From positions 250,001 to 310,000 of the forward strand of contig JBBHKE010002135.1 of assembly GCA_037447655.1 (NCBI GenBank): 60,000 bases of DNA. The letters are read 5' to 3'. Below are positions 20,299 through 60,000 of the stretch, piece by piece. The notes below the pieces were generated by a model. It saw only the letters and a list, made by a program, of their open reading frames with translations, was not told the DNA's origin and made no database searches. The stretch is from Zygnema cylindricum. Lineage: Eukaryota > Streptophyta > Zygnematophyceae > Zygnematales > Zygnemataceae. A program made the translations under genes and the position numbers. The number at the start of each line of letters is the position of its first letter. Within the stretch, counting starts at the first letter, position 1.

Positions 20299-20517
20299 TG
20301 TTGACGTACGTGAAACGTGCGATCGATATCCGGAATTATGGTAAAATCCACATTAAAACCTATATAAAAACGGACCACCCAGCGTAACATCGGAGCTGGT
20401 GGCATAGTGGTAGTGCGTTCACAGCTAAAGTGAAAGGTCCCAGGTTCAACTTGGCCGGCTCATCAATCCTTTTATTGGGATCGTCCATTCTATCCCCCGA
20501 TTCTAAGAATCTTAACA
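20299..20517 (+). repeat. TRIM 5' LTR
   Basis: 219 bp, TGTTGACG...TTAACA. A TATATAAAA box at 20371-20379 lies upstream of the tRNA-like part. Followed directly by the primer-binding site. Confidence 0.85.
20393..20461 (+). ncRNA. tRNA-like sequence in the TRIM 5' LTR
   Basis: 69 nt that fold as a near cloverleaf. Acceptor GAGCTGG pairs with CCGGCTC (seven pairs, one G-U). The D arm is GCAT-AGTGGTA-GTGC, four pairs. The anticodon arm TTCAC-AGCTAAA-GTGAA has five perfect pairs and a 7-nt loop. The T arm has lost two bases relative to LTR2. The A box TGGCATAGTGG is good; the B box GGTTCAACTT is damaged. By position the anticodon would be CTA, but U33 is G, so a charged tRNA is unlikely. It is either a pol III promoter or a relic of one. 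Confidence 0.6.
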
Positions 20518-20583: not shown

Positions 20584-20802
20584 TGTTGACGTACGTGAAA
20601 CGTGCGCTCGATATCCGCAATTGTGGTAAAATCCACATTAAAAGGTATATTAAAACGGACCCACCAGTGTAACATCCGAGCAAGTGACACAGTGGTAGTG
20701 CGTTCGCAGCTAAAGTTAAAGGCCCCAGGTTTAAATCCTGGCTGGCTCAACAATCTCTATTGGGATCGTCCATTCTATCCTCCGATTCTAGGAATCTTAA
20801 CA
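20584..20802 (+). repeat. TRIM 3' LTR
   Basis: 219 bp, the same length as the 5' LTR, TGTTGACG...TTAACA. Confidence 0.85.
20678..20748 (+). ncRNA. tRNA-like sequence in the TRIM 3' LTR
   Basis: 71 nt with canonical spacing. Acceptor GAGCAAG/CTGGCTC has six of seven pairs; the T arm CCAGG-TTTAAAT-CCTGG is perfect; the D arm has three of four pairs; the anticodon arm TTCGC-AGCTAAA-GTTAA is partly broken. LTR1 is intact where LTR2 is broken and vice versa, so the ancestral LTR carried a complete cloverleaf. A third partial copy at 20835 preserves a perfect B box (GGTTCAAATCC). Confidence 0.65.
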
Positions 20803-20941: not shown

Positions 20942-21539
20942 TCGGTTTTTCCTGGCCCATGTTTGAGTTGTGGTAGTTTAATTTCTGCCAATGTTGGAGT
21001 TTTCCAGACATTTAATTCGCATTGTGTTTCACTTTTGGGGCTCAAATGTTTTATTGTTCCTTTGTTTTTTACCTGTATACATGCATATTGTTTCTTTCTG
21101 TATTTGTTTGAAGAATATCAATGGAACATTTGTTGTTTTAGCAGGTAATTGTACAAATTATTTACCGATATTGCAGATTGAAGCTGAACTGTATTTCTTT
21201 TTGCAGGTTATACAAAACGATTAGTCAGTGTTAAATTAGTCCGTCAAGCCATAATTATTTTTAGATGACTAGTGTCTTTCCCACTGAGCATGCTTCAGGA
21301 AATTCTAGAACGGTTTCACCAGTCATCTCTAACCTTTGTCAAGCTAGGAAACCATCTTGCTAAAGAAGACTTTAATTAGTTACTGAGCTATCCCATTTAT
21401 GACAACGAAAGGCCCACGTCATCTGTGCTACCAATCTTTAACGACAATGTTTCAAGGCTGGAGATCAACACTCGTACCTGTTAAGGATCGGTGATATTCA
21501 ACATATCGTATGGGCGCCAAAGTGAAAACTTTGGAAAAT
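20942..21539. other. Unassigned sequence
   Basis: T-rich, no recognisable gene. A good splice acceptor, CTTTTTGCAG, ends at about 21206 and may belong to the gene fragments on either side. Confidence 0.3.
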
Positions 21540-21611
21540 GGCCAAGCCGGGGATCGATCCCGGGACATTATGTTAGCCGTACACTAGCTTTACCAACTGA
21601 GCTACCCGGCC
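21540..21611 (-). tRNA. tRNA or tRNA-like gene, isotype unclear (positional anticodon GGC)
   Basis: 72 nt on the minus strand. Acceptor GGCCGGG pairs with CTTGGCC (seven pairs, two G-U). The A box TAGCTCAGTTGG is perfect; the D stem has three of four pairs; the T arm CCGGG-ATCGATC-CCCGG is perfect with a good B box. The anticodon arm AGTGT-ACGGCTA-ACATA has four of five pairs. The base after the acceptor is A, followed at once by TTTT, a pol III terminator. Counting from the stem puts GGC at 34-36, but position 33 is C rather than U, and the acceptor lacks the G3-U70 pair of tRNA-Ala. It is thus either a tRNA-derived pseudogene or a divergent tRNA. Confidence 0.6.
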
Positions 21612-36833: not shown

Positions 36834-36849
36834 TTCATTATCCCCAAAC

Positions 36850-38463: not shown

Positions 38464-39489
38464 TGGACCACAGAATACAGGAAGCCTCTAGATAGTATTT
38501 AACTAACCCACTTTAAGCCACAACCACTGCTGCCCAAGAATTCAAACTGACAATTTGACTGCACCCCTGTGTAGCTTGGACTCCCCTGAGTCCGTAGAAA
38601 AAAGAATCACTGAAAACGGCCAACCAGGCGATAAGTTATAGGGTGGCAAAGATGCCAATTTATACAAACTCTCTGAGAGAGAGAGGACTATCTACCTAAA
38701 TTTTCCTAAGTCCTAGTTTTTCCTAATTCCCTCTCACAGCTCCTATCTACTGGCTGTACGAACCAATCACAAAACTGTATAGTAATAGAAAGTACTACTG
38801 CCGATGTACTTTCTGTACGGCCTCTGTACGACAAGGCCATAAGTGGACGCGTGTATACTTTCCACTCATCCGTACGTTCCTCGGAATTCCCGCGACCGAA
38901 TGATGTTTCCCCACGTGGCGCCAGGTGATGCCACGTCACTAAATGCCAAAGTGACCACTCCGGGATTTCGGCGATGATGTGCGCCGTTGGATTATATGTG
39001 AAACGTAATCTTGGCCGGAATAAATACTTGCGCGATATTTGTTCCGATGTAAAAAAATACGTGGTATCTGTTTTGAATTAGCGTAGTACGACGTACTTTA
39101 TAAAACTGTATATATGTACGCCGTTAACAGTTTTAGTTAAATGAACTTTATCCTTTCGAACTAAATATATATCTATCACATACCATAGCACTTAGCATTG
39201 GTCCTAGTCTATTAGGATAAAGCTGACCGCTATCGGTCGATTTGACGAACCGCAGGTATCGGGATCAAATCTCAGGTCCGTCAAGTATATTTTTAGTAAC
39301 CTACTAAAAATAGCTGTCTGTTGAACTAAGGCAGCCATGGATCAACCTCTCTCTCTTTCCTTCAGTGACTACAGCAAGTATGGGGGCTAGAGAGCGGAGG
39401 TGGAGGCAGGCTGTCCGTCCTTTTCTTTTTCCTTTTATAAAAACATATTTAAACCTAGAAAATACTCTAGAAATCTATAAATTTCAACA
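38444..39489 (-). repeat. Copia II 5' LTR
   Basis: 1,046 bp, TGTTGAAATTT...GAATTGCA on the minus strand; it should hold the promoter. Nearly identical to the 3' LTR, and it supplies the gag start codon. Confidence 0.95.
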
Positions 39490-39494
39490 CCCAC

Positions 39495-40337
39495 GGCAAA
39501 AAGATTCACTAAAAACGACCAACCAGACGATTAATTATCAACTGGCAAAGATGCCAATATTTATACAAGCTCATTGGGAGAGAAGTGACTACCTCCTCAA
39601 TCCTCTAAGTCCTAAACCCATCTCACAACCCCTATCTACTTATATACGAACCAATTAGAGAACTGTACAGTACAGAAAGGTACTATGGCAGATGTCCTTT
39701 CTGTACGCCCTCTGTACGACAAGGCCATGGAGTGGACGTCTATCTCTTCTAGACTTGTTCCTATGCTCACCGAGATTCCCGCTTTCTAATTCTATCATGC
39801 CATGTGGCGCCAAGTCATGTTACGCCCGAAAACCGCCAAAGAAGCCATTTCGGGACCTCGACGATGTTGCGTGCCGTCGGATATAAACTGGCATTTAATA
39901 TTAGCCGTTAAAACAAATGTCCGGTATATTTGTTTCGTGCGGGTTTATGTTTGGACTATATTTCAGCTAGTCTCTATGCTTGTTATCTATAATTTTGTTA
40001 ATCAGATTAAGGTTCTTTAGCATTGTTGAAATAAGAATCAAACCCTATATGCTCTTACAAACTTTTATGACAGACCGGTTAGAGCTGACGGCTACGCCTC
40101 GCTCTGCCGGTGGAGGTTCGAGTCTTGCCGGACTCAACCATTTTGTTAAGAGTGACTTATGTCACTCTACAGTCCAGCCTGTGTAGCTAAGGCAGCCATG
40201 GCACCACCACTTTCTCTCACCTTCAGTGACTACAACAAGTATGGGGGCTAGGGAGAGAAGGTGGAGGGAGACTGCTTGCACTTTTACTTAATCTATTTAG
40301 ACCTAGAAAATACCCCCTAAATCTAGTGATTTCAACA
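39495..40337 (-). repeat. Copia III 3' LTR, right piece
   Basis: Continues 32902-33054 after the copia II insertion and ends at TTTCAACA (minus TGTTGAAAT), followed by the polypurine tract and copia III pol. It includes a plus-strand tRNA-like part at about 40064-40133 with a good B box, GGTTCGAGTC, and complementary ends GACCGGT/GCCGGAC (six of seven pairs). Confidence 0.8.
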
Positions 40338-40339
40338 CT

Positions 40340-41372
40340 CCCCTTTTTATCTAGTCATATTTTAATTTTATTTTATCCGCACTTTTCTCTCCAATATTTT
40401 TACTTGGGAGATGGCACAATTTTGGTCATAATATCAACCACCATTTCTCCATCAACCCAATACACAAGATTCACAATTTTGTTTTCTACCTTCTCTCTTA
40501 CAAAACTTAATCTTATGTCAATATGTTTAGCATTGAAGTGATGTTTTGGATTGGGAGCAATTGAAATTGCAGCCTGGTTATCACAAAAAACTTCATGCAT
40601 TCCCTCTTTCATATACTGTAGTACTTGCAATAAAGACTTAACCCACATCAACTCTTTCACAACAGAAAAAATTGCCATGTACGCAGCCTCCATAGTGGAC
40701 TAAGCAACCACCTTTTGTTGCTTGCTACTCCAACAACAAGCACCATTCCCCACACACAACACATATCCAAAATTGCATCTTTTCATAGGTGCATCCCCAT
40801 AACTGGCATCACTCCAAGTAGTGATGTTAGTGTGATCTCCTCCCTAATGCGACCATAAATCCTGGGTTCCCACCAGATATCTCATAACTCTCTTGGCTGC
40901 CTCCCCATCAGTCTTTCTAGGATCATTAAAAAATCATACTGAGGACTCTAACTATTGCCGCTATGTCTTTCCTAGTACTGTTTATAAAGTAGATTAAGCT
41001 TCCTACAACAAGCCTGAAACGAATGGACTTCATAAACTGTCTCTCACTTGGACTCATCTGATCATATGAGATTATCACTGTTCCTTCTACACTCCCATCA
41101 CTTAGCTTCTTCAAGTCCATGGGAGTGGTACAACTATTTGCCTCTTCTATTTGGAATTTGTGATGCATATTTCTTATGACTTCTTTCTAAGGAAGTCTGA
41201 TAATCTTCTTCCCCCTATCTCTCTCGATTTTAATTCCCAAAAATATACCTTGCTTCCCCCAAAATCTTTCATGTCAAACATGCTTATAAGATCTTTAACT
41301 TATTGATCTATTCCATAAACTTACTCAACGCCAGCAAATCATCCACATAAATTGCAATGAAAATAACACCAC
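40340..41372 (-). pseudogene. Copia III Pol remnant: RT C-terminus and RNase H
   Basis: Minus strand. RNase H is visible at 40400-40693 (MEAAYMAIFSVVKELMW, FCDNQAAISI, KHIDIRLSFVREKVENK) and the region before it at 40926-41168 (NSCTTPMDLKKLSDGS). The RT catalytic part [12 protein letters not shown] lies at the break near 41372. Frame breaks and stops separate the pieces. The upstream two thirds of pol and gag are missing because LINE sequence begins at the break. Confidence 0.85.
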
Positions 41373-41531: not shown

Positions 41532-44496
41532 TGCTGCTAAATATAATAGCAGGATAAATTTAAAAGCACGATGGTAACCCATCTGAGTCTAGGGTACAAA
41601 AAGGGTGGCACGGCCAAAACTGAAAAACTACAATAAAAAACAAATAGAGCGATGGGAACACAAAAGAAAAGAAAAGAAAAGACACAATCGACAAGGAAAA
41701 TAAAAGCACCCAAACTCGAAATGAAAAGCACGACAACTCAGAAAACCAAAACTACAACCCCAACCCCAAATCAATTAAATATCTACGAAAAGCAACCCCG
41801 TAAGTCCCCCCAGCCTGGGGGAGCACGTTGAGGGAGTTGCGGAACACGGCGACAATCCATAACCCTAAACGCCGATCGGAGGATAATAGAAGCCTGCACT
41901 CGCTGTAAAGCCACCGATAAACGTTGACGATAAAAAGAAGTAGGTACCGAAAGAGGAGGGCTCCCAGGTCCTCGACGCTCGAAAGCACGTCGAGCACAAG
42001 TATGGAGAAATTCGTCCAGTGCAACACCCAAACAACCAAAGATCTCGACCGCCATCGGAATAAAGTCATCTATAGGGTCCCTGTGGGCATAATCACGCTC
42101 TTTCGCCTTAGCGGCATCACGAGCTACCACCCCAACATGTCGAGTCGCCTGACCAACAACTGTAGCTGAAGTAAGGTTTGCTTAAACAATATCACAGAAG
42201 ATGCGACGGGCACCATCAAGTAAAACAACATCGATCCGACGCGAGAGAATGATATGAGTAACCTCTCGACGCACAGAAAAGCCTATTTCCGAAGCGATAG
42301 TCGCAATGGTGTCGCGAATAGTGTCATGCGCCTGGATCAAATCTCCCCCATGGGAGCAACGAAGCAAATGGACACCATCGAGCCCCAAGACACGACCACA
42401 TGCAAAAACAAGAGAGCCAAGTAAAAGAGGATGGGGGAGGCCAAGGCGAAATCGGAGAGCGGTGGTGAATTGAGCAGGTGAAAATCGGAGAGTGGCCAAA
42501 CTAGGTGTGGCGAAAAGCCAAGACCCAAAACCAGGTCCACCACAATAGAGAAGACGGGCACACAAAGAATCGGAGGGAAGCTCCTTGAGAAGGTCGGATT
42601 TAATGGCGTCGACAACCCGATCAGAAATCGATTCCTGGACACTAGGGGGTACCAGGAGCTAGAATGGGGGTGTCCCCAGCCAAGAAACGGGAAACACGAG
42701 TAGAGGCAATAAGACACAAACTTCCCAAATAGGCAGCAGGAGCAACATGAGCAGTGGATAATAGACCCAACCCCCCGGTAGAGACAGGGAGGGATGCTTG
42801 AATGCGAGCCGATGGCCTGAACTCACGATCAAATGCCCCACGACTTAGCTGAGTATGGAGGACGTCCATGAGGCGATCTTCAAAAGCCGAGAGAGGGGAG
42901 ATAAATGTTGGAGTGGGAGAGGAAGTATGAGTAAGGTAAGAAGGCGGTGGGGAAAACACCTGGTTAACATAGCAAAAGCAACTTGGGGATCGGGAAGGCA
43001 AGGAAGATCGTCCACTTGGGCCAGATCTATCTGTAAAGCATAATGAAGGAATTCGGTCACGAAAGTATCAAACCAAGGGGGCAACCAAGCACCCGAATGC
43101 CATCGGAGGGAGAAGGGGTTTGAAAAATAGGAGTGGGAGTAAACAAATGTGGAATATCCCGAGGAAACCAAATAACACACTTCGACGGTAGGACTGAAAG
43201 GTTGCGTTCGGCAAACGTTCCTTGAAAAAGTCATATGCCAACATGACTTGTTCTCTGGGCCCAATAATGTGCGTATCATCTGTGACCGAAGGGAAAAGGC
43301 AAGAAGGGAGGGCGGCCGCGGAGGCACGAAGGGCCCGGTAATGGGCGAGGGCACACAAAGGTCCGCCGAGAGGGTCGCTTTGGCGAGTGCCACTAGGAGA
43401 GGAGAGAGGAATGAGATCTCCATCGACCGAGAAGGAAAGGCTCATTATCAAAGAATAGAAAGCCCTCACAAAGGGGTATAATTGGACAATAGGAGATGGA
43501 GCCGCCATAGGCTCTAAAAAAATCACGTTCCGATCCACCGTATTAAAGGCATTGGAAATGTCGACCTGAAGGACCAACCAATCCGGATGTACATCCAATA
43601 AAGCCCGAATCCCGTGGACCACGACCTCAAAACCCCCTCTCGTGGCCACTCCAAACTCATGAGGAGAAAAACAATCATGGAAAGCTCGTTGGAGTAGGAG
43701 ACATATTGCACGAGCCACCAATCAATATAAAACCTCTCCCACGGCGATAGGGCGGATCCCACCATGAGGTTTGGCGACTGCCACAAGGCGGGACGCCGTG
43801 AGAAGATCACAAATCCGAGGGGGAACATCCCCACTAGCAATATGGGAACATACTCGAAAAAACACATCGAACCCCGGGCACCCGATTCTGGGGGCAAAAC
43901 ATCGCGAAATAACTCATACACTGTGCCCAAGGGGCCCCCCGCTGAAAGGTGAGGAGAAGAGCTAAAAGCCTTGACGAAAACCTCCCGATTCAAAGTAAAA
44001 CTCCCAGAAGGCTCAAAGGCGTGGATGGAAGGGGGTAAAGGGGAAGGGGCAGGGGGGTGGAGAGCTCGAAGAACCTCAATAGTGGAAGAAGATCCGGGGG
44101 GAGGGGTGAATGGCTGTAGGGCCCTAACCGCTCGAGAAAGCTCACCAACACGGCCTAAGTGAATTTCTCGACGATAAGAGGCTGGGACATTTGATGGCCT
44201 AGGTGGCCGACGTGGTATGAAAGAGGTGCTCGATACCCGATCCTCATGCTCGGCGTGGAGGGCCTTCCAGTCACCAAGAAGGAATCGGCGACAACGTGCC
44301 ATAGTTCCTCTAGCCCCACTGCCCCTTTCACGACCTGGAAGGACTAGCACCCAAAGAGAGAACATAAGAAGAAGGTGCCAAGGAGCATTGTCCGCCGAGT
44401 TTAAAAAAATGTGGGACAAGGAGAGGTGGAGGGCATCTTGTACTATTGTCCTGACGGCCATAGGAATACCGGTGTACAATCGCGGGCCGGGGGCTC
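41532..44496 (-). mobile_element. Non-LTR (LINE-like) retroelement, 5' truncated and decayed
   Basis: Minus strand, about 3 kb, inserted in copia III pol. Order from 44496 downward: N-terminal linker region, reverse transcriptase, thumb and C-terminal domain, about 200 bp of 3' UTR, simple-repeat tail. There are no LTRs. The 5' side ends at the gypsy LTR, so the start is lost or interrupted. Confidence 0.75.
41783..44479 (-). pseudogene. LINE reverse transcriptase polyprotein remnant
   Basis: 44479-43523 (318 codons) is the region before RT, ending at a frame break near SRRPALWQ. 43721-43068 is RT: AICLLLQRAFHDCFSPHEFG, motif A LQVDISNAFN, motif B SGTRQSDPLGGPL (the usual GDPLGG reads SDPLGG) and motif C VTDDTHIIGP (TDD for ADD). 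Further frames give the thumb (ARIQASLPVSTGGLGLLS), a C-terminal part with RCSHGGDLIQAHDTIRD and RRIDVVLLDGARRIFCDIV, and a last piece DFIPMAVEIFGCLGVALDEF. At least five frame changes make it non-functional. I do not assign a LINE clade. Confidence 0.8.
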
Positions 44497-45679
44497 TGTC
44501 AAGCTCGTGTGTGTTTTCGGCACACCTTTATTTTCCCAAGATCTTCAGAACCCTATCTACCTGTACGGACATCAGCGTACGGCGAAGGAGGCGCACAAAA
44601 CCGGACCAGATCAAGGGATTTCCTGAACGGAACGGAACACACTTTATTTCACGCCTAACAGAGGCCAGAAAAGCCAAGTTATTCTGCTTCAAAGATTTCA
44701 CTTCTATTACATGCAGCCAATTGCCACTTGACCTTTTGGGGGTCACATTGTGGAACGCCACGCAACTCTTCGGATAGTCATTTAGATTTGGCTGTCTTAT
44801 GTCAGTAGGAATTTAGTTCAGGTCCAACTGGCTTTTTGTCCATTAATTAAGCCTGGTCAAAATTTGGCGTTTAAACGTCAGTTTTAGTACTTTGTCTTAT
44901 TGAAGTGGAACCAACTTGACTTTCATCCGGAAATCTAGCCGTAACTGAAAGCTCATCTTTTTTCCCTAAGTGTAGTAGAGCTTAATTTGTCGTTTGTCAG
45001 TTCGATAGCATTTGCTTCCCGCTGATTGGTTCATTGTATTGCTTTGACTTTTTGGACCGGAAGTGGACAAACTTGGTTGTATAAGGCACTTGGGGCCGAA
45101 GGAGACAGGTTGCTTTTCAGTACTGTCTCCTGTGAAAACCTTAAAGAAATTCCAAACAAACCTTCTTTTGGAGAATCGTTGTTGTGCTTGCTTGTTTGAC
45201 TCTATTGCCATCTTGGTTTGGATTTGTCTTGGTTAGAGATCGTAGTTCGGGCGGCTAGTTGGCACTATCAATCCTTTTAGGCGATCTTGAGTTTTTGCTA
45301 TTGAAACCAAGAAGAGTCCAGTTGGTTTCGATCTGTGGAAACCGAGTGGTGAAGGAGAATCGTACCGCTCTTTAGTGTCCCTGGGAGATATTTCTTCTTC
45401 CTTTGTGGTCATCTTGGCTTTCTAGGGTATGTTGCGCTTGCTCTGCCATAATTCTTAATTCTATCTTTAATTCCATCTCTGGGGCAAGGTGATATTGTTG
45501 AATCTGAAACAGCCACTCATTTCTATTTTTATTATTTCCACGTGGAAGTTCCCTTGTCCTCCTCCGGTAGTGCCATTCGGATTCTGTTGTGTTCCCTCCG
45601 GAACCGGTTTCTTTCATCTTGGGTACTTCAACAGTAGGTTCTAAGGGTACAAAAGCTAGACTTCCAGTGGATCAGCACA
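44497..45679 (+). repeat. Gypsy 5' LTR
   Basis: 1,183 bp, TGTCAAGC...CAGCACA. The following sequence GTACTGATAAGCAACC is where a primer-binding site should be, but I cannot match it to a tRNA. Confidence 0.85.
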
Positions 45680-45808
45680 GTACTGATAAGCAACCTGTCT
45701 CCTTAGATTAGAGGAGATAGGAGCTTTGACTCAGGAATCTCTCTTAGTGGAAGGGGGTTTTATTTTCTCCTTTTTGTATTACTTCCTCTTTTCAGTGGTT
45801 ACCCTTAG

Positions 45809-46792
45809 ATGGGAGGAGGAGAGGCTCAGGATAGGAGAACTCCCAGCATCACGCCGGAGGAGGAAGTTAGTCAGGGGGGATCTCCACCTGGGGAGGGCCC
45901 TCCCAGGACAGAGGAGGCAATCCAGGAAGCTCCCATGTTTGAATCTCCACCCAAAGGACCGGCCAAGGGAAATGTCCCTCCTATCCCTCCAGTCCTCACT
46001 CCTGAACAATTCCCTTCTCTAGCCGAAGCTGCTCGGGCACAAGCCGAAGAGAAAAGGAAAACGTCTCCTACCTCTCGACCAAAAAGGTTGGCCCATAAGG
46101 AGCCAGTCTCCGGACATCTGCCGGAGGTTGGATTCCACACCCGATCCAAAATTCCAAAGGCCGAGATCCCAATTGATCCTGCGGTGTTAGCCGATCCTTG
46201 TCGTCCTGGTCGTAAGGAACTTCTTGCTCTACATGGTCTCCATGAGCTGAAGGTGAAAAAAGAGTTGGTTCAACGAGTGGCCCAGGCCGATCGAGCTCGG
46301 GTGGTTAGACCAGTGGGAGGAGTGGTGGAAATTCTGAGCAGTTCCACTGAAAGTAGCTCATCCCCATCTGAACATAGTCCACCTCGGAGAGCACCGGAAT
46401 TTCGTCCTACGCCATCTTTCTCTCAGGACACATCTACCAGCAGGCCAGCCAGGGGACGTGCCACTTCTCGATCCCGCCCCGGAGAAGGGGGCAGCAGGAA
46501 GGATTTCCCAGATCCTTGGAAGGGGAAGCGATTCGACCACCGGGATAGTAAAGGTAGATTTGCTCCTATGACCAAGGAGGAAACATTTCCAACACCACCT
46601 CCCACCTCGACTGAAGGGCCTACCTCCTCAGTTCTAAAGGGCTCACCTCCTTTGGAGCTTCGGCAATCCAAACCCACCGATTCCGAGGTTCCCGATGTAG
46701 ATCGGGGGAGATCCTTTCCCAAGGATCCCACAGATCGCCCTTCAGGGGGGCTATGGCGAACCAAACTTACAGATCCCGAGGTTCCGAGGTAG
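45809..46792 (+). pseudogene. Proline-rich leader frame of the gypsy element
   Basis: 327 codons, Pro/Ser/Arg/Glu-rich and probably disordered (GGSPPGEGPPRTEEAIQE, SSSTESSSSPSEHSPPRRAP). No domain is recognised. Similar low-complexity coding sequence continues in other frames at 46753-47031 and 47155-47385, so this looks like the N-terminal part of a long gag now split by frameshifts. It could also be a separate accessory frame. The start at 45809 follows the LTR and about 130 bp of leader. Confidence 0.55.
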
Positions 46793-47417
46793 AGGTGGGA
46801 GATCTAACTGGGGTCTTAAACAGTGCTCAGGAATTGGTAAAGAAGTTGAGATCTCAAGGTGGGGCTACGACGGGGGCCGGACCTGTCGAAATAGATTGGG
46901 AGGCTTTAGAGGAAGAAAGAAAGAAAGTATGGGAACAGGAACTACGTCTGATAAGGGACGCACGGCTTAGGTCCGGAGGACTTCTTAGGGATCAGATCTC
47001 CACGTCTCCTATACTCAATCCCTACATATAGGAGCCGACTAGGGAAGCCGCTCAAGTTCACAAGTCCCACCCTAAGGAGACTCCATCTCAAAAGTCTCCA
47101 GAACTTCCTCTTCAGCGGGGAGAGGGAGGACCAACAGGACCTAATGAAAAGGGGTTGGGTGCAGATTTACGTTCTGAGTTTGCTCCTGTCCCTCGAGAGA
47201 ATCCTACCTTTGTATCTGTGGAGATCGCCTCCGCCGTGGAGGCTGTGGTAGAATTAGGACCAGACGAATGGGTCCATATCCCTTTGAGACCAGCTACTCC
47301 ATCTTCGTCGTCTCACAGGCACAATCCTGATCCGACAGCCTCTTCTCCTCTGCTCACCTCCTTCCAGCCCCGGGACCCGCAGTAGATCCCAAAGACGTTC
47401 CCATAAGAGTCCCCGGG

Positions 47418-49409
47418 TTGACAGTTGAATCACTCGTCACTGCTGCGCGACCAGAAACTTCCATTCCCGCTTATTCGCCACCTCACCGGCGTTCTCCATC
47501 ATCCAGTTCTGAACCACTCCCTTCTTCTCTTGCTGGGCGCACGGCAAGGGGGCAAACCCTGTATCCCAAGCACGGTCCTTCGCCATCCGCGTCTTCTTCG
47601 TCATCCAAGGGAACACCTCCAAAACGACCGGATCTTCAAATCCCACCGGAAAAGAGAAGTAGGCGATCGCGAAGACCTTTCGCACCTCGGGGAACAGAAG
47701 CGTCACCATGGGGAGACATTTTCCCCCCAACCATTTTGTCAAAACCAGGCACTTCCTCCGTGGGGGAGAGAGTGGCCATTTCTCAAGCGGCTACTTCCGT
47801 CGGGGAAGTAGGTGATATGGGATCCGAAAACGAAGAGCAAGGGGTGATTTCTCCCGCACAGTTTGTCAGTCCCACTAGACCTCACTCACCACAATTCACT
47901 AATCTCGCGGAGGAGGAGAAAGAAATGGGGGACAACCGAATATTTACGGGAGATAATTCCAGAATTGCCTTCTCAGATTTTGAACTGTTGTGGAAATCTT
48001 TCACTCAGTCCGAAATCAACAAATATCGGGGAGAGGTTATTCCTGATGACTTCGAGACTACCCTCTTCCCCATGATGGTCAACTATCTCTCTAGGGGTGC
48101 CTTGGCGGATTACAAGGAGCAGCAACATCTTCTAATGGCTCCTAGCATCAAAATATCCGATCCGACTCTCGATGCGGCAGTTTTACAAGCGGAGGCCGAT
48201 TTGGCAGCAGCGGCAGCCGCTCCTATTTCTCGCGTCTTTACCGAACACATGAAGCTGCAGGCCTAAGGTCGAACATACGTTAACCAACTACAAGCTATTC
48301 AGGCAGCCCGAGCTGCCACTCGAATGATCGCCAACCCCTCTCCGTGCACAACACTCCTCGACGCCTGGAGAGTGTTGTATATTGAGAGGAATGAGTCCGC
48401 CATCAAGGAATTCACGGACTTCCGATGCTTGAAGAATGAGATGCCCAAAGCCCTTTTCAATAGGCTCTCCAGTCTTTGCCAGAAAACCAAGTTGTCAACA
48501 ATTGATCTTCCAGCAATGGCAACAAAATATTTTATTGCAGTCGGAAATTTGTTTGGACCCACCGGACAAGCTGCTCTAGATAACTGGATCGCAAGCTAGG
48601 CAATCCAAGACATTAACCCCTCAGCTAAAGAAATTTCCCTAGCAGCCATGAAACTGTACGACCATTTCGTCAACAGTGAAGCTAGGGAAAAAGTGGTCAC
48701 CGGCAAAGCCAGAGCAAATTTTGTCGGGTTTGACGGAGAAACCCCTTTGAGCAAAGAAGAGCAGCATGAACTCCAAGCTTTGCGGAAGCTTAAGGGCAAA
48801 CAGATAGCTGATAGCGGATCAGAACCCGCAATGGGGGCGGATGAAAGGATGATTTTGTATAATTGTCTGAATTGTCAGCAGAACGGCCACGGGTGGAAAC
48901 GGTGCCCCCGAAAACTAAAACCGGAACTCGCTCTGAAACAGAAGGAATGGGAAAAAAAAAGGGCTGAAAGAACTCAGAAGCAAAACGAAAGGAAACAAGG
49001 AGGGGGATCGGAGGACAAAACTCCAGTAACAAAGGCTAATTACTGCCCAACTCCCCTGTCCGAAACCTCCAAAATGTCTCAAGCCAAGTTGAGATTAATC
49101 AAACTTCCTAAGTTCGATGACGCCAAAATTTCTAATGAATTACGGATCAAATATACTACCGAGGGTTCCAAATGCGAGGCATGCGGTTTTATTGGCCACA
49201 AGAAAGGGCAGTGTTTCCGAAAGAATGGGGTGCCAAAAGAGATGATGCAATACGCCCTGTTTACCGGTGAAGGGGAAGCCGCCTTGAATTCTCTCCCTCT
49301 TCAGCTCCTTTACCCCTGGGGACGCTGCACCATGGAGGAACCCGAAAGAACACCGGCAAGTCGAGCAACCAGTACCCTGGAAGAGATAATTCAACATCAA
49401 AGCCAGTAA
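47418..49409 (+). pseudogene. Gypsy Gag with two zinc knuckles
   Basis: One frame from 47418 to 49409, broken by TAA at 48264-48266 and TAG at 48597-48599. After a disordered N-terminus, a capsid-like helical region runs from about 47940 (FSDFELLWKSFTQSEINKY, DAWRVLYIERNESAIKEF, MATKYFIAVGNLF). Two CCHC knuckles follow: CLNCQQNGHGWKRC near 48870 and CEACGFIGHKKGQC near 49180, separated by a Lys/Glu-rich helix. Gag packages the RNA in cytoplasmic particles. After the stop at 49409 the same frame stays coding-like to about 49635 (ASQLAALSLNSPS, ELEQEATAVGDDDD). Confidence 0.75.
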
Positions 49410-49635
49410 TTGGCCGCGATGGCTTCACAATTAGCGGCCTTAAGTTTAAATTCCCCCTCCCGTCCGGCTGCTCTGACGCCTGCTCAGAAACTCCAACAGA
49501 GAAAACAATAGCTATTACAAAAGCTAGCGGAGCTTGAACAGGAAGCCACGGCGGTTGGAGATGATGATGACATTATGGGATGGGATATGACACCTCCAAG
49601 AGTTAACCATGCCCAGACTTTTCATTCAGAAGCCT

Positions 49636-50396
49636 GAAATGTGGGGGTGGGGGATAAGCGCAGACAACTCTGTCACACAACATCGGAGCAAAGGAGGGAC
49701 AGACAGGGACTAGCCCCAGGAGATCATAACAGAAAGACCACATGACCATTGTCATTCACCCCCCGGGCGGTAATAGTGAACAATGACATCGGCCTAGGAA
49801 TAAAACCTACACACCCTCCCCCACAAGCTATGAAAAAACTACCGCCCGGATTCGAAAAATACAAGTTCGACAAACAAAGGGAGACAAAGAAAAACGCTAA
49901 AGAGGAAGAGAAGCGGAAAACCCAGGACTGGTTCGAACGGTACATGGCTGAACGCTCGGAGGATGAAACACTAGAAACTCCTCCCACGCTAGGATCGGAC
50001 GCCGAAAACGAGGAAGCAAGGGGGGGGGGCAAGAGGAGCAGAAAACCGAGGAGAATACCCTCATTTCCTCCCCTAAAGTTGTGCCTCCTTCCTCTAAATC
50101 AGCTGCTATGTTAGTCCGTCACTTAATGTCCTACGCCCTTACACATGTCAAAACTCTCGCCTCATCACACAATCTATCAGAAAATATCCTTATTAAGGCA
50201 TTGGGAGAGGAAATTCACTCAAGACGGGAGAAAATAGAGCCGGCAGACCAATCCAGTTTCGTTTTTCTATTCGCCAAACCCAAGACCCCTATGATGGATA
50301 GGGATTACAAAGCCTTATTGGTGGCCCTCATCCTCAACCGGACCGGAAATTTCCGAAAATTTCAAGCTCAACGGATACGGGGGCTATCAGGATGCC
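49636..50396 (+). pseudogene. Gag-protease linker of the gypsy element
   Basis: Frames at 49749-50114 and 50081-50458 in different phases. The first is rich in Lys/Glu (KNAKEEEKRKTQDWFERYMAE); the second leads into the protease (HLMSYALTHVKTLASSHNLS, RDYKALLVALILNRTG). Probably the spacer between gag and protease with at least one frameshift; no catalytic motif. Confidence 0.45.
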
Positions 50397-50693
50397 GTGG
50401 TCAATACCGGTGCGCTTCCAAATTTAATAACAACTTTTGCTTTACAGCAGATGCTTGAGGAATCACGGCCAGAAATTTTACCAAGCGATATCTGCCTGAG
50501 TACAGTAAGCAGCGGAAGTCAACCGGTCCATGGAATCATCAAAGCTATGGAAATTGAATTCTCAAATGATACTGGTCAACGAGTCAAGATCGAACTCCCC
50601 TTTCTAGTGGTGGAAGGGAAGCAGTTCGAGATTCTGCTGGGGATGGCAACTTGGACCCGACTAAATATGGAGTTGAGTGTGTGGAAGAAGTAG
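50397..50693 (+). pseudogene. Retropepsin-like protease with mutated active site
   Basis: Reads VVNTGALPNLITTF, where a retropepsin has D-S/T-G; the catalytic Asp is Asn (AAT at 50403-50405). The flap and end look right (SSGSQPVHGIIKAMEIEF, then FEILLGMATWTRLN, the usual LG-M-W element). The enzyme normally works as a dimer to mature Gag-Pol; with Asn it should be inactive. An upstream start is not needed since it would be part of a polyprotein. Confidence 0.7.
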
Positions 50694-50732
50694 TTCACGG
50701 TGAGGGGCCGCGAGGAGCCCGAAGGGACCTAG

Positions 50733-51490
50733 GTGGTGGTGCCGTTAGGATTATGGAGTAGGGGAAAGATAAATGCGCCCGTGTCCGGCTGTTACCCCGT
50801 ATATTCCACATCCTCTCCGGCTGAACTTTTTGCCTGCTCACCAGATATTGCCAACGAAATATACCAATTCCCTATTTCTAAGCGGTGGGAAGAGGAATAC
50901 CAAGCCCGACTATTTCAAATGGCAACACTTTGGCGGAGAGTGAAACAGGCTTTTACAGCAATAACACCAAATGAAATCCTTTCAACTCTTCGGTCAGAAT
51001 CTTCGGAAATCCTGTCCCAAGATGGGAAGTTCAACCGACAAGTGGTGTTACTCACCATCCCAGCTTGCGGGCTCCGGATTGTATCATTATTTTTAGGAAT
51101 CAACACTGATCTAGAAGCGGTTTTGAAAGCAGGATACGTAATAGAGGCGTATACGGCTGTGGAAATATCACCCGAAGCTCGAGCCGTCAGCGAGCATCGC
51201 CTTCACCAATTACACCAACTCTATCCTCAACAACTCCCAGTGTCGGCAATCTCCCACGCTCACCGAAGCTTACCTCAGAATGTGGAAAACATCATGACCC
51301 CTCACGTCGCCAGTCTGGGAAGGGTAGATTTGGTGGTAGCAGGATGGCCTTGTCAGGGATACTCTCTAGCCGGACAAGGAAAAAGACATGCAGACCGAAG
51401 AAGTAGGACTTTCTTTAAGATGATACAAGTAATATCATGGATACAACAGCTCTAAGACACACCAGTGGGGTATGTTTTGGAAAATGTCCA
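50733..51490 (+). pseudogene. Cytosine-5 DNA methyltransferase domain inside the gypsy element, truncated
   Basis: A 240-codon frame (50733-51455) plus about 12 more codons after a TAA at 51453-51455. Motif I of the SAM site reads LRIVSLFLGI near residues 114-123, where the family has SLFDGI, so the usual Asp is Leu. An acidic strand with VEISPEAR (143-150) follows. Motif IV reads LVVAGWPCQGYSLAGQGKRH (200-219) with the catalytic Cys207 intact (codon at 51351), followed by DRRSRTFF. Beyond the stop, in the same frame, motif VI is GYVLENV. Motifs VIII-X and the target-recognition region are absent: the sequence passes within about 130 bp into integrase. The domain sits where reverse transcriptase would begin. 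Known from the literature: retrotransposons of charophytes and dinoflagellates have captured such enzymes. This copy cannot be active as it stands. Confidence 0.85.
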
Positions 51491-51552
51491 CCCTTCGACA
51501 AAAAGGGTGGAACTGAGATGCATTCTTTGCCCATCCGGGGAATGTTTTACCG

Positions 51553-52512
51553 ATGGTCTCTGGATCTCTTACGGCCTCTGCCTACCAGTTGAAGGGGCAA
51601 TCGCTTCGTTCTTTTTATGATCGAACATTTTTCCAAATGGATAGAGTTTTGTGGTTTTGCCCCGGAAATAGTCCAAGTCTATTGCACATGCATTTTTGCA
51701 GAGAGTATTGTCTCAATTCGGAGCGCCCGCAGAGGTTTTGACAGATGAAGGCTCTGAATTCGCCAGAGAATTTTCCACCCTCTTCGAGAAATGCCTCATC
51801 GATCATCGGCTAACCAGTTGGGACCACCCACAGGCCGACGGACTGGCCGAAAGGTGCGGCAAAACAGTGAAGCGGTAACTGCGGAAATATGCGGTCGAAG
51901 AAGATCTGGGGGAGTGGGACCGAAAGGTTCCTTGGATTGCCATGGGATAAAAGTTAAGCCGACAAGCTTCCCTCCACTCCTACAGCCCTTACTTCATCCT
52001 CTTTGGACGACATCCCATCCTTCCCGGAGCGGCCTCAGCCCAAGCGGTGGTTCTTCCAGGAAATGGATGACCAAGGGACTGTCGAAAAACTGATATCTGA
52101 AAGAGCTAAAGTGTTCCACCGCGAGATACCCCTTTCCATGGGAAATTTGTAGTCAGCTCAATACAGGGATCAGTTGTGGTATTCTCAACGACGGAGCGGG
52201 AATTATGTGCCCAGACATCGACAATTTATGCTCGGTGACTTTGTATACAGGATGCAACACAAAAAGGATAAGTTAGATATTTCTGCCGGTCGGGTAATTT
52301 TAAAAGTGGTGAAAGTTTCTAACAAGGGTGTTCTTACTTTGGAAGGGAAGGAGGGCCAGAGATTTAAAGAGAACCAAGTCAATGTGGCCCCTTGCCATCT
52401 TCGAGGATTGGAGGACGAACCCACCTTCCACTTGACTTATTTAGCCGATCCTCCCTCTTGCTCCTCATCCTGTGATTTGTCCTCCCAGCTGGATCACGTT
52501 TTTGGTGTGTAA
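51553..52512 (+). pseudogene. Gypsy integrase core and C-terminal domain
   Basis: Shifting frames give FMIEHFSKWIEF-like sequence (about 51615), then at 51696-51878 the catalytic block VLTDEGSEFAREF and HPQADGLAERCGKTVKR with the second Asp and the Glu of the DDE triad. Stops follow. 52174-52512 gives the C-terminal domain: RHRQFMLGDFVYRMQHKKDK and KVVKVSNKGVLTLEGKEG, typical of Ty3/gypsy integrases. The N-terminal HHCC finger is missing, lost with RT and RNase H in the deletion after the methyltransferase. Confidence 0.75.
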
Positions 52513-52645
52513 CCACTAGAGCCAGTGCTGGCATCCTTCATGTCTTCCCCCCACCTGGGAGCCAAGCCCTCAGCCCTCAATTACCTGGTTCTGCGGGAGT
52601 TGCAAATTGAGCGGATAACAATTTAATTCTTAGTCCCGATTGACT

Positions 52646-52660
52646 AAGAGGGGGGGGAAA
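52646..52660 (+). promoter_or_regulatory. Gypsy polypurine tract
   Basis: AAGAGGGGGGGGAAA, the only long purine run near the 3' end. It lies 286 bp before the recognised LTR start instead of next to it, which is unusual. Confidence 0.55.
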
Positions 52661-52944
52661 TCGAGACTACGGCCCGATGACCTCTACGACCACCCTTTCT
52701 CGGTCATATAGGGAAAAGGGAGGGGAAGTGGGGTATCTTTTTCTTCTTCCCAACCTTGCATTTCTCATCTTGCCTCATTATCTGCAATGCCTTGCATGCC
52801 CGTCGCCGGGAGGTATGGGAGGGCCGAACTGGACATTTTCACTATCATGGGAAACACCCGCATTCTCGGGTTATTGACAAGATTCCTGGCCGACAATTTA
52901 CGCCAAAAGCTTTATTCTTTCTGGTGCACTAGGCACGCGCGACA
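52658..52944 (+). repeat. 287-bp unit X, upstream of the gypsy 3' LTR
   Basis: From AAATCGAGACTACGG to GGCACGCGCGACA. It recurs after the LTR at 54121-54404 with many substitutions. It has no counterpart before the 5' LTR. Confidence 0.75.
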
Positions 52945-52946
52945 GG

Positions 52947-54118
52947 TGTCAAGCTCGTGTGTGTTTTCGGCACACCTTGATTTTCCCAAGATCTTCGGAA
53001 CCCTTTCTACCTGTACGGACATCAGCGTACGGCAAAGGAGGCGCAGAAAACCGGACCAGATCAAGGGATTTTTTGAACTGAACGGAACGCACTTTATTTC
53101 ACGCCTAAGGGAGGCTGGAAAGCCAAGTTATTCCGCTTCAAAGATTTCAGCTTGTTACATGCAGCCAGTTGCCACTTGACCTTTTGGGGGTCACATTGTG
53201 GAACGCCACGTAACTCTTCGGATAGTCATTTAGATTTGGCTGTCTTTTGTTAGTAGGAATTTATTTCAGGTCCAAATGGCTTTTTGTCCATTAATCAGGC
53301 CAGGTCAAAATCTGGCGTTTAAGCGTCAGTTTCAGTACTTGTCTTATTCAACTTTGACTTTCAGCAGGAAATCTAGCCATAACTGAAAGCTCATCTTTTT
53401 GCCCTAAGTGTAGGACAGTTGAATTCGTCTTTTGTCAGTTTGATAGAATTTGTTGTCCGCTGATTGGTTCATTGTATTGCTTTGACTTTTTGGACCAAAA
53501 GTGGACAAACTTGGTTGTATAAGGCACTTGGGGCCAAAAGAGAGAGGTTGCTTTTCAGTACTGTCTCCTGTGAAAAACCTCAAAGAAATTCCAAACAAAC
53601 CTTCTTTTGGATAATCTTTGTTGTGCTTGTTTGCTTCACCCTATTGCCATCTTGGTTTGAATTTGTCTAGATTGGAGATCGTAGTTCGGGCGGGTAGTTG
53701 GCACTATCAGTCTTTTTGGGCAATATTGACTTTTTGCTATTGAAACCGAGAAGGGTCCAGTCGGTTTCAATCTGTGGAAACCGAGTGGTGAAGGAGAGTC
53801 GTACCGGTCTTCAGTGTCTTTGGGAGATATTTGGTCTTTCTTTGTGGTCATCTTGGCTTTATAGGGTATGTTGCGCTTGCTTTGCCATAACACTTAATTC
53901 TACCTTTAATTCCATTTCTGGGGCAAGGTGATATTGTTAAATCTCAAACAGCCAATCATTTCTATTTTTATTTATTTCACCTGGAAGCTCCCTTGTCCTC
54001 CGCCGGTAGTCATTTGGGGATTCTGCTGTGTTCCCTCCGGAACCGGTTTCTTCGATCTTGAGTACTTGAGCAGTGGGTTCTGAGGGTATAAAAGCTAGAC
54101 TTCCAGTGGATCAGCACA
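52947..54118 (+). repeat. Gypsy 3' LTR
   Basis: 1,172 bp, aligned over its whole length with 44497-45679, including TGACCTTTTGGGGGTCACAT and TGGGGCAAGGTGATATTGTT. Divergence is clearly higher than between the copia II LTRs. Confidence 0.85.
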
Positions 54119-54120
54119 TA

Positions 54121-54404
54121 AAATTGGGACTACGGCCCGATGACCTCTACGGCTACCATTTCTCGGTCATATGGGGAAAAGGGAGGGGAAGTGGGGTATC
54201 TTTTTCTTCTTCCCAACCTGCATTTCTCATCTTGCCTCATTATCTGCAATGCCTTACATGCACGTCGCCGGGAGGTATGGGAGGGCCAAACTGGACATTT
54301 TTACTGTCATGGGAAGCATCCGCATTCTCGGGTTATTGATTGGATTCCAGGCCGACAATTTACGCCAAAAGCTTTATTCTTTCTAGTGCACCAGGCACGC
54401 TCGA
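54121..54404 (+). repeat. Second copy of unit X
   Basis: AAATTGGGACTACGG to GGCACGCTCGACA. It stops where the first copy meets the LTR and is followed at once by copia IV pol. This looks like the end of a second gypsy copy or of a tandem array, cut at the LTR boundary. Confidence 0.7.
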
Positions 54405-54556
54405 CAAGAATAAGATTGTGAATCTTGTATATAGATCTAATGAGGAAATGGTGGCTGATATGATGACAAAACCAATGCCCTCTCCTAAATTGAAATATTT
54501 TAGGGAAAAATGTGGACTAAAACTGAAAGTTAAATTAGACCATAAAATAAGGGGAG
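54405..54556 (+). pseudogene. Copia IV Pol, last 45 codons
   Basis: Plus strand: NKIVNLVYRSNEEMVADMMT, KPMPSPKLKYFREKCGLKLK, as at the end of copia II Pol, then AATAAGGGGAG, the polypurine tract, directly before the LTR at 54557. Confidence 0.85.
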
Positions 54557-55595
54557 TGTTGAAATTAATAGATTTCTAGAGTATTTTCTAGGTTTAAATA
54601 TGTTATTGTAAAAAGAAAAGAAAAGGACGGACAGCCTCCCTCCACCTCCTCTCTCTAGCCCCCATACTTGTTATAGCCACTAAAGGATAGAGAGCGTGGT
54701 TGATCCATGGCTGCCTTAGTTCAACAGGTAGTTATTTTTTAGTAGGTTACTAAAAATATACCTGACAGACGCGGGATTTAATCACGGTACCTACCGTTTC
54801 GTCAAGTTGGCCTATAGCGGTCAGCTTTATCCTATTAGACTAGGACCATTGCTAAATGATATTGAATGTGATAAATATATATCTATTTAGGAGGGAACAA
54901 ATTCATTTAACTGAAACTCTATACGGCATGCATAGGTACATTTTTATAAAGTACGAAGTAGGATACTACTTTGAAACGGATACCGCGCATTTTGTTTCGA
55001 CCTCGAAACAAATATCGCGCAAGTATTTATAACGGCTGAGATTGCATTTCAAGTCAAATCCAACGGCGCACATCATCGCCGAAATCCCGGAATGGTCACT
55101 TTGGCATTTAGTGACATGTCATGACCTGGCGCCATGTGGAGAGATAACATTCGGTCGCGGGAATTCTGAGGAACGTACGGACGAGTGGAAAAAGGACACG
55201 CGTCCGCTTAATGGCCTTGTTGTACAAAGGTCGTACAAAAAGTATATCGGCAGTAGTAGTATTATGTACTGTACAGTATTTTGATTGGTTCGTACAGTTA
55301 GTAGATAGGGGTTGTGAGAGGGAGCTAATACTTAGAAAAATCTGGTAGATGGTCTTCTCTCTCTTTGAGAGGTTGTATAAATTGGCATTTTTGTTGACTT
55401 ATAACTTATCGCCCGGTTGAGCGTTTTCAGAGATTCTTTTTCCTACAGACTCAAGGGAGTCCATGCTCTAGAGGGGTGCAGTCATATTGTCTATTTTTCT
55501 GCTTCGGTAGCAATGGTTGCCAATGAAAGTGGGTTAGTTAATAACTATCTAGAGGCTTTTGTACTCTCTAGTCAAATGGAGGACACAGAGTTTCA
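54557..55595 (+). repeat. Copia IV LTR
   Basis: 1,039 bp, TGTTGAAATTAATAG...GACACAGAGTTTCA. It has the end of pol on its left and gag on its right, so it is shared by two internal regions, as after recombination between tandem elements. It contains the gag start ATG at 55577 as in copia II. Confidence 0.8.
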
Positions 55596-57255: not shown

Positions 57256-58303
57256 TGAAACTCAAAGACCTCCATAAGTCCTTAGAGTGGACAGCTTCCA
57301 AGAAGCCTCTAGGATAATCCTGACCCCTTTGTGTTTAAGCAAAAATAACTGCCACCCTGGCAGAGAAAAACTCTGACCACCTTCACCCTTGTGAAGGCAA
57401 GACTCCCCTGAGTCGATAGCAAAAAGAATCTCTGAATTTGTTCCCTTGAGTAGTAAGTTATGGAGGGTCAAAGTTGACCTTTTGTACAGAAGCTCTTTGG
57501 GAGAGAGGGTCCTATCTTCTAATTTTTCTAAGTCCTATCTCTCTCACAGACTCTATCTACTGATGTACGGAACCAATCAGAATATAGTTCCGTACGCAAA
57601 AGTACAGCTGCCGGTGTACTTTATGTATGGACATTGTACGACAGGGCCTAAATGTCTACACATGGAATATCCGGATTCGCTCCTTTAATCCTCGGAGATG
57701 CCGCGCTCCAATGTAACATCGCCACGTGTCATCCGATGTGGCGATGCCCACAAACCCCCGAATTCTTCTTCCGCGATCTCGGCGCTAATTCCGGCTGTCC
57801 GATTAAACTCGCATTTGATCGTAGCCGTAATAAATACATGCGCGGTATTTGTTTCGCTTACGAAATCAATGCGCGGTATTGATTTCTTATCCGTACCGCA
57901 ATTCGTACTTTTACACTACCATATCTATGTATCCCGTTAACAGTTATAGTTAAATGATTTATCCCACGTGTACATGTTTAAATCATTATCATACTATATA
58001 CTATGTAAGACTACTTGTAGACTTAACGGCTAAGGCTACTTACTACCTACTCTTTGACGGCCGGCAGGTACCAGGATCAAATCTTGTCGCCAACACATAC
58101 CTTTTATTAATTAATCCCTTGACTAATATAAATTTCCCGTAAACCTCAGGATAGCCTATGTAGCCATGGCTCTAGCTTCCTCTCCAATTCCTTAGTGACT
58201 GCAACAAGTTTGAGAGTTGGAGAGAGAAGTTAGAGGTAGACTGCCTCGGCTTCTTTATTTCTATTCAGACCTAGAAAATACTTAAAAACCATTAATTTCT
58301 ACA
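57256..58303 (-). repeat. Copia V 3' LTR
   Basis: 1,048 bp, on the minus strand TGTAGAAATTAATGG...GAGGTCTTTGAGTTTCA. The inner end again holds an ATG (ATGGAGGTC). Possible target duplication CCCTC (57251-57255); the other flank is outside the window. A plus-strand tRNA-like part lies at about 58013-58090 (B box GGATCAAATCTTG). Confidence 0.8.
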
Positions 58304-58316
58304 CTCCCCTTATTTT

Positions 58317-60000
58317 CTAGTCAATCTTTAATTTCAGACCACACTTCTCCTTGCAGAAAATTAGCTTAGGGGAAGGCACAGGTTTGGTCATCATATCTGC
58401 TACCATCTCACTATCTAGTCGGTACTCTAAACTGATTATTTTATTTTCTACTTTCTCTCTAACAAAGCTAAGTCTAATGTCCATGTGTTTGGCTTTAAAA
58501 TGATGTTTAGGATTGGCAGAAATAGCAATTGCTGCCTGATTATCACAAAATATTTTGTGCACACCACTCTTAAGATGACCAAGTTCACCAAGTAAAGACT
58601 TGACCCACATCAATTCTTTTACAGCAGAGCAAGAGGCCATATACTCAGCCTCCATGGTGGACTGAGCAATAACCTTTTGCTGTTTGCTACTCCAACAGCA
58701 AGCCCCATCACCCACATATAATACATATCCAGAAGTGCATCTCCTCATCAGAACATCACCATAACTAGCATCACTCCAAGTAGTGATGTCAGTATTCTCC
58801 CCACCCAAATGCAACCATAGATCCCTAGTTCCTATCAAGTATCTAAGAACTCTCTTAGGTGCCTCCTAATCCTTCTTATTGGGAGCATTTAGACTTCTAC
58901 TCAGCACTCCTACAGCTGCAGCTAAATCCGGCTGGGTACAATTCATAAAAATAGTTGACTTCCCACTACTTGCCTGTAAGGAATATTATGCATGAACTTC
59001 TGTTTTTCAAGAGATAATTCCTCGTCTAAGACTATGACTCCTTCTTCCTCACTCCCCTCACTTCCCTTCTTCAATTCCATTGGAGTTGTACAACTATTAG
59101 CTTTATCCATTTGAAATTTATCAAGCATGTTCCATATTGCTTCCTTTTGAGTCAATCTTATAATTTTTCTTTTTCGGTCTCTCTCTACTTGAATTCTCAA
59201 AATATATTTTACTTCCCCCATATCCTTCATTTCAAATCTCCCCTTAAGATCGGTTTTCAGTTTATTATTTTTTTCCATTGATTTACTTAAAACAAGCAAA
59301 TCATCAACATAAATTGCAATAAATATAAAACCTTCCTCATCTTCGAAAACATAGATTGAGTGATCTGAGCTGATCCGGATATATCCCAGACCGGTAAGAA
59401 ACTCATCAAGCTTCTTATTCCACTGTCAAGGCGCCTGTTTCAAACCATAAAGAGATTTAATCAGCCGGCATACCTTACTCTCCTCTCCTTCTTCCACAAA
59501 CCCTTCGGGTTGTCGCATGAAGATCTCCTCTTCCAATTCTCCATGCAAAAAGGCTGTTTTGATGTCTATCTGGTGCACTTTCATGTCTTCCGCTGCTGCC
59601 AGGCTGAGAAGTATACGGACGGAGGGAAATCTGACCACCGAGGCAAAGGTTTCCTCATAGTCAAATCCCTCGTTTTATGTAAATCCCTTTGCCACTAGTC
59701 GGGCCTTCTAGCGCTCGACTGTGTTATCTGGGTTCAGTTTTAATTTTGAAAACCCACTTACAACCGATTGGTTTTCGGTTAGGTGGACAATCCACCAGCT
59801 CCCAAGTATCGGCTGCCATAATTGAGGCCATCTCTTCATTGATGGGTGTCTTCCACCGATTTCTTTCTGGACAAGTCATCGGCTCTCCATAAGTTTGAGG
59901 TTCATATTGATGAGATAGTTTAGTTACCTTGTTATTAACATGTTTTTCTTGCAGTCTTTTACTACTTCTCCTTCCCCCCTCAAAATCTGAGGCCGGAATA
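58317..60000 (-). pseudogene. Copia V Pol: RT and RNase H, continues beyond the window
   Basis: Minus strand. RNase H is intact in 58838-58317 (TTWSDASYGD, QSTMEAEYMA, FCDNQAAIAI, ending KCGLKLKID). A stop and a frameshift near 58865-58950 separate it from 59299-58943 (KSMEKNNKLKTDLKGRFEM, ILRIQVERDRKRKIIRLTQK). RT continues at 59638-59426 (VRFPSVRILLSLAAAEDM, SLYGLKQAP), with the YVDD region at about 59305, and the linker runs to the window end. It is more decayed than copia II and probably inactive. Confidence 0.9.

Follow-up and report, generated by a model that had tools for sequence, protein, structure and literature searches.

The window, by which is meant the whole 60-kb stretch of Zygnema cylindricum DNA that was analysed, very probably holds a dead copy, with an internal deletion, of a Ty3/gypsy-type retrotransposon of the KnitGypsy-Dnmt3 kind, in whose polyprotein the order is gag, protease, DNMT3-type cytosine methyltransferase, reverse transcriptase (RT), RNase H, integrase and PHD finger, living copies of which would prime their own reverse transcription and methylate their own new DNA. 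This kind of element has been known since 2018, when de Mendoza et al. (PMC5890265) described a DNMT3 in the Pol of a gypsy element of Klebsormidium nitens, KnitGypsy-Dnmt3; the charophyte precedent for such a capture, as given in the first-pass annotation, is borne out. The window element is one member of a larger family of this sort. New here are 44 related polyproteins in two layouts (13 and 31), 26 of them with a PHD finger, and, in the window itself, a PHD remnant and a 28-nt self-priming signature. The features of the element are collected in Table 1.

Table 1. Features of the methyltransferase-bearing element (window coordinates).
Feature	Position	Strand	Basis or remark
Whole element	44497..54406	+	Order A-coding-B-A-B; self-comparison, joints and ends
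Repeat A1 (5')	44497..45679	+	Starts TGTC, ends ...CACA; 89.6% vs A2
TATA-box-like TATAAGG inside A1	45080..45086	+	Read from sequence; about 20-30 bases before presumed RNA start
Presumed 5' end of element RNA, self-primer sequence	45099..45126	+	Reverse complement of 45677-45704, 27/28; start inferred from TATA box
Primer-binding site, A1 end	45677..45704	+	Pairs with 45099-45126
Gag remnant, two zinc knuckles (about 48864-48905 and 49173-49214)	48342..49823	+	tblastn with P0001 residues 5-463, E 1.3e-13, 22%; knuckles aligned
Aspartic protease, NTGA replacing DTGA	50358..50681	+	35% to P0001 615-723, E 6e-13; family profile 43.8 bits
Linker before methyltransferase	50733..51062	+	P0003 colinear over protease, linker and methyltransferase, 50388-51494
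DNMT3-type cytosine methyltransferase, N-terminal half (motifs I, IV, VI)	51069..51506	+	PF00145, P0002 match, family profile
Deletion junction	51494..51509	+	P0002 residues 178-1118 without counterpart
DDE integrase core and C-terminal part, three frames	51509..52455	+	P0002 67, 76 and 51%, aligned from 51494
PHD-finger remnant, second half	52496..52603	+	Family profile 17.4 bits, E 7.6e-5; only match in six frames, E <=0.1
Polypurine-tract candidate, at B1 start	52646..52660	+	15-base purine run
Repeat B1	52658..52944	+	Ends GACA; 92.7% vs B2
Repeat A2	52947..54118	+	89.6% vs A1
Repeat B2, outer 3' end of element	54121..54406	+	92.7% vs B1

The methyltransferase and the deleted coding region

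A protein-family search with the translation of 50.7-51.5 kb, as suggested in the first-pass annotation, gave a significant match to PF00145 (Pfam, frame 50733-51452, E 5.6e-7, 29.7 bits, cut-off 22). The profile built on the family matches a single site when all six frames of the 60 kb are scanned (E <=0.1), namely 51078-51506, with 164.5 bits and E 6.6e-50 over profile positions 1-143 only. By tblastn, the related polyprotein P0002 matches 51069-51506 with 49% identity (E 2e-39) and P0001 matches 51075-51491 with 50% (E 7e-35). Motif I lies at about 51075, motif IV (GWPCQGYS) at about 51342 and motif VI (YVLENV) at about 51471, so that the C5-methyltransferase with PCQ, motif I and ENV that had been read from the letters is borne out, as is its place between the aspartic protease and the integrase. 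An in-frame stop at 51453-51455 closes the stop-to-stop frame from 50733, with motif VI directly beyond it, and the second half of the catalytic domain is missing from the window copy. A protein search with the 240-aa frame gave none of 601 candidates at E <=0.001; when the methyltransferase region was re-searched with a longer parent length P0001 was found, one of 268 candidates.

The extent of the deletion can be mapped on P0002, the closest relative. Its residues 32-177 end at 51506, residues 1119-1170 correspond to 51494-51649, residues 1170-1306 to 51648-52058 and residues 1308-1438 to 52063-52455, leaving a missing stretch of 941 residues (178-1118). By this map the window copy lacks the latter half of the methyltransferase together with RT (532-735), RNase H (798-929) and the integrase zinc finger (1061-1116). 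The proposal that the enzyme lost its C-terminal half at the same junction as RT and RNase H agrees with the alignment of P0002 on both sides of about 51.5 kb. One deletion, seen without intermediates, is the simplest reading of this loss. Profiles of RNase H and of the integrase zinc finger find no match in six frames of the window (E <=0.1), and the RT profile, over the same six frames, finds Copia elements only and nothing in the gypsy-type element. The frame shifts at the junction and again at about 51648 and 52060, and there are further stops; the copy is therefore dead.

The earlier description of the methyltransferase as standing in the position of reverse transcriptase applies to this copy only, as eleven relatives, P0001 and P0002 among them, have the domain ahead of an RT that is kept. 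The interval 50733-52512 that had been given for the feature does contain the domain, but its first part (50733-51062) is linker, the integrase runs to about 52455 and is followed by the PHD remnant, and the element as a whole spans 44497-54406. The PHD spot ranks first in a window-wide tblastn of the PHD pieces of eight relatives (E 1.3e-6).

Repeats, ends and priming

The methyltransferase lies inside a unit bounded by repeats, as had been claimed for it, and the repeats of this gypsy-type element are ordered A-coding-B-A-B. Self-comparison (E 1e-5) revealed no further copies of A or B in the 60-kb window. A starts with TGTC and B ends with GACA, the inner B1-A2 joint reading GACA-GG-TGTC. 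The A repeats differ by 9.5% and the B repeats by 7%, a divergence too great for the copy, or its parts, to be young. No target-site duplication was seen around 44497-54406, and the flanks belong to two different elements, the right-hand one being a Copia tail (85% to 34247-33761). We read the locus as a recombination between two insertions or as an assembly join; in the case of recombination both ends of the element would be genuine insertion ends, and both fall at the B-A joint. Adjacent to the left end, minus-strand frames at 42182-44527 resemble by eye the RT of a non-LTR retrotransposon and stop at that end; two of these frames gave no match in Pfam.

A plain LTR retrotransposon, in which A would serve as LTR (TG...CA) in the usual way and B2 would be a chance neighbour or a product of rearrangement, is an unlikely description of this arrangement. 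It would account for the TG at the start and the CA at the end of A, and the two-element flanks and missing target-site duplication do indicate a rearranged locus, but the purine tract (one of 11 purine runs of at least 13 bases in the element) is found at the start of B1 and not before A2, both outer element ends fall at a B-A joint, and the same repeat order has been described for KnitGypsy-Dnmt3 (PMC5890265).

With A-coding-B-A-B as the preferred structure, the likeness to KnitGypsy-Dnmt3 extends from the DNMT3-type domain in a gypsy-type Pol to the repeats, which the figure legend of PMC5890265 gives as DIRS-type and which were compared by the legend text; the window copy differs in being dead and deleted, and in another genome. 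SymbioDIRS-Dnmt3 of Symbiodinium, in the same source, likewise has a DNMT3-type domain in Pol and A-coding-B-A-B repeats. It carries a tyrosine recombinase, whereas the integrase of the window element, P0002 and P0004 is of the DDE (rve) type; the window element has this DDE integrase and not the tyrosine recombinase by which DIRS elements are recognised, and Phage_integrase (tyrosine recombinase) had no match in the nine frames scanned with Pfam.

The primer site at the end of A1 is complementary to the element's own sequence. With post-A1 bases alone counted and no more than one mismatch allowed, the complementarity extends over 25 nt, as compared with a best of 14 in 985 windows of the internal region and a best of 17 in 500 shuffles of the site; the diverged A2 gives a match of 17 to the primer site. 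TGG, the partner of the tRNA CCA end, is absent from the first 41 nt after A1. Judged from these letters, and with the 5' end of the RNA presumed, the arrangement at the A1 end is that of self-primed elements. In Tf1/sushi and Tcn1 chromoviruses (PMC6317226) the primer site also pairs with the element's own RNA and not with a tRNA; the parts of that source cited here do not mention a methyltransferase, which the window element has. A hairpin, GGAGACAG...CTGTCTCC (-15.7 kcal/mol over 36 nt), can also form at 45101-45131 in the presumed RNA 5' end, and its formation would compete with the pairing of this end to the primer site.

Relatives, layouts and a possible role of the enzyme

A search with the methyltransferase region of P0001 yielded at least 45 matches, P0001 included, among 7989 scored candidates. 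At least 44 of these are whole or partial polyproteins of the gypsy type; P0045, an enzyme of bacterial type, was excluded from the counts. The relatives come from green algae and environmental DNA, the only named species being Closterium sp. NIES-54 and NIES-53 (P0027, P0028). The presence of Closterium here would, like the Copia elements and the kinase and Hsp70-like frames of the window, fit a host of the green lineage. Domain orders were taken from profiles built on the relatives, with Pfam run on six of the 44 (P0001, P0002, P0004, P0013, P0027 and P0031), and can be grouped into two layouts. Layout one, with the methyltransferase before RT, includes 13 of the 44 listed relatives, among them P0001 (gag-protease-methyltransferase-RT) and P0002 (methyltransferase-RT-RNase H-integrase). 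Layout two, with the methyltransferase before the integrase, includes the other 31. RT follows the domain in 11 of the 44, precedes it in 26 and is absent from the piece in seven; of the latter, P0003 and P0005 were counted in layout one because the protease precedes the domain, and P0018, P0020, P0022, P0036 and P0037 in layout two because the domain runs into the integrase zinc finger. The methyltransferase of layout two (within P0006-P0042) stands between RNase H and integrase, a position that the cited parts of PMC5890265 do not describe for gypsy elements; for SymbioDIRS-Dnmt3 they also give two domain positions.

A gypsy-type RT, deleted in the window copy, is present in the same polyprotein in P0001, P0002, P0004, P0027, P0031 and others, and that of P0001 best matches Ty3-type structures. 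A PHD finger follows the integrase in 26 of the 44 listed relatives, 23 of layout two and three of layout one (P0038, P0043 and P0044); P0002 reaches only 2 bits with the PHD profile, its tail being Cys-rich by eye.

P0002 is the neighbour of the window both in the methyltransferase tree (99/81 when 20 of the 44 relatives are included; with all 44, support 86, and 95 with P0001) and in the integrase tree (support 96). The two layouts are parted by a single branch, with SH-aLRT 99 in the tree of the methyltransferase and 90/93 in that of RT (37 rows). The integrase tree is less clean, with three changes of layout, two in the careful tree, and a single-branch split on the integrase is not rejected by the AU test (p 0.093). 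Placement of the long branches P0043, P0044, P0038 and P0037 is less certain, and the sample consists of domain-bearing elements only, which puts the number of captures outside its scope. A search of viral contigs with P0001 gave no relative. An alignment-based search gave 12 loci in viral and three in bacterial/archaeal collections; when the P proteins were compared with these 15 loci by tblastn, all 405 rows fell within the methyltransferase part, so by that test the loci are no retrotransposons, and they were used as outgroup.

A 2025 survey (PMC12344493) refers, in one sentence, to DNMT3 members in retrotransposons and names LTR Copia and DIRS; among the matches listed from open-licence PMC full text there was no further report of a gypsy-DNMT element or of a gypsy PHD-DNMT combination. 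According to PMC5890265, DNMT3 enzymes of Symbiodinium DIRS elements were shown to methylate CG in yeast, and the Klebsormidium gypsy enzyme had no activity there, a result its authors termed inconclusive. Why retrotransposons should bear an enzyme of the class that silences them was left open in that 2018 paper.

In living copies, the RNA of the element would prime its own reverse transcription. As part of the polyprotein that also supplies RT, the methyltransferase may be held in the particle and could methylate the new cDNA at CG sites ahead of integration. The copy would then arrive in the genome already marked; the PHD finger may bind histone tails and help to choose or mark the insertion site. 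Self-methylation of new copies is put forward as a model, and what the element would gain by it is the least certain part of the proposal. For the element, the ratio of observed to expected CpG is 0.68. Its left flank has a ratio of 0.82 and the Copia flank on its right one of 0.60; the Copia element at 34-38 kb has 0.34, and the stretch 1-33 kb has 1.03. Compared with the other elements of the window, the element has no excess of CpG depletion that could be taken as a trace of self-methylation; its 0.68 against 0.34 and 0.60 in the Copia sequences lends the model no special support.

This lack of excess CpG decay would fit a methyltransferase that is a passenger, captured once and of no benefit or role in the life cycle, as would the mobility of elements without a DNMT3 domain in the same kind of genomes (PMC5890265). 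Such a passenger is nevertheless quite improbable. Among relatives with a letter in the column concerned, all 43 have the catalytic Cys, all 44 the motif VI Glu and all 43 both motif VIII Arg, in both layouts, the motif I Phe column being more variable (F in 29, C in nine, empty in six of the 44). Identity to P0001 goes down to 34%, and constancy of the catalytic residues over that range argues for selection on the enzyme. Purifying selection has also been reported for the DNMT3 domain of the Klebsormidium copies (PMC5890265). The breadth of the family, its conservation of catalytic residues, its two domain orders and its histone-reader finger suggest that the enzyme has long been useful to its carrier, and the many lineages of the family could serve to test whether new copies are methylated before landing.

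A more specific version is possible, though on balance doubtful. The element may be a self-primed gypsy with permuted ends (A-coding-B-A-B, TGTC...GACA) whose DDE integrase acts at the B-A joint (GACA-GG-TGTC), which would point to a circular or permuted cDNA as in DIRS; its own DNMT3 writer and PHD reader would act on that intermediate, and the methyltransferase would have moved once across RT/RNase H, remaining catalytically intact in both lineages. The repeat order in any case raises the question of a DDE integrase handling ends that resemble a circle opened inside an LTR.

Enzyme class and the rest of the window

By sequence comparison the window methyltransferase is of the DNMT3 type. Against PDB, the window piece alone matches DNMT3C (E 0.0017), DNMT3A (0.011), HhaI (0.018) and DRM2 (0.044), and P0001 alone matches DNMT3A (1e-11), HaeIII (5.6e-7) and 4onj (1.9e-5). 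4onj is presumably a plant DRM. A profile of nine relatives scores DNMT3A at 84.9 bits, DNMT3B at 75.3, 4onj at 43.9, HaeIII at 38.7, HhaI at 38.1 and DRM2 at 36, and no chain named DNMT1 or CMT is among the best 60 of its 62 PDB matches. The motifs follow one another in the canonical order I-IV-VI-VIII, while those of the plant DRM domain are described as rearranged (PMC5890265).

The tree proposed in the first-pass annotation was run for DNMT3 against prokaryotic and phage enzymes, with DNMT3A as three printed pieces and DNMT1, CMT and DRM sequences left out, and it places the window on the DNMT3 side: the relatives, the window and DNMT3A are split from 16 prokaryotic/phage enzymes at 100/99. 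The view that the domain is closer to bacterial-type enzymes, and derives from a bacterial or phage-type methyltransferase because of its PCQ context, is scarcely credible: PCQGYS in motif IV does occur in many bacterial enzymes, and with the window piece alone HhaI comes close behind DNMT3C and DNMT3A, but the nine-relative profile prefers DNMT3A to HaeIII and HhaI by a wide span of bits and the tree separates the two sides.

Elsewhere in the window, a long Copia element, whose two large open frames encode 921 and 545 aa (gag, integrase, RVT_2), lies at 34113-38487 (-), and Copia-related pieces lie at 39151-39490, 40178-40483, 54409-54896 and 58162-58409. Two Rfam tRNA matches about 900 bases apart, at 20678-20749 (+) and 21539-21611 (-), score 37.9 and 38 bits; ARAGORN calls neither and places one tRNA at 20393-20462 instead. 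An Hsp70-like frame at 2806-3726 (+) (PF00012, E 2.3e-6) and a protein kinase frame at 5203-5838 (+) (PF07714, E 3e-25) are both probably exons of host genes.
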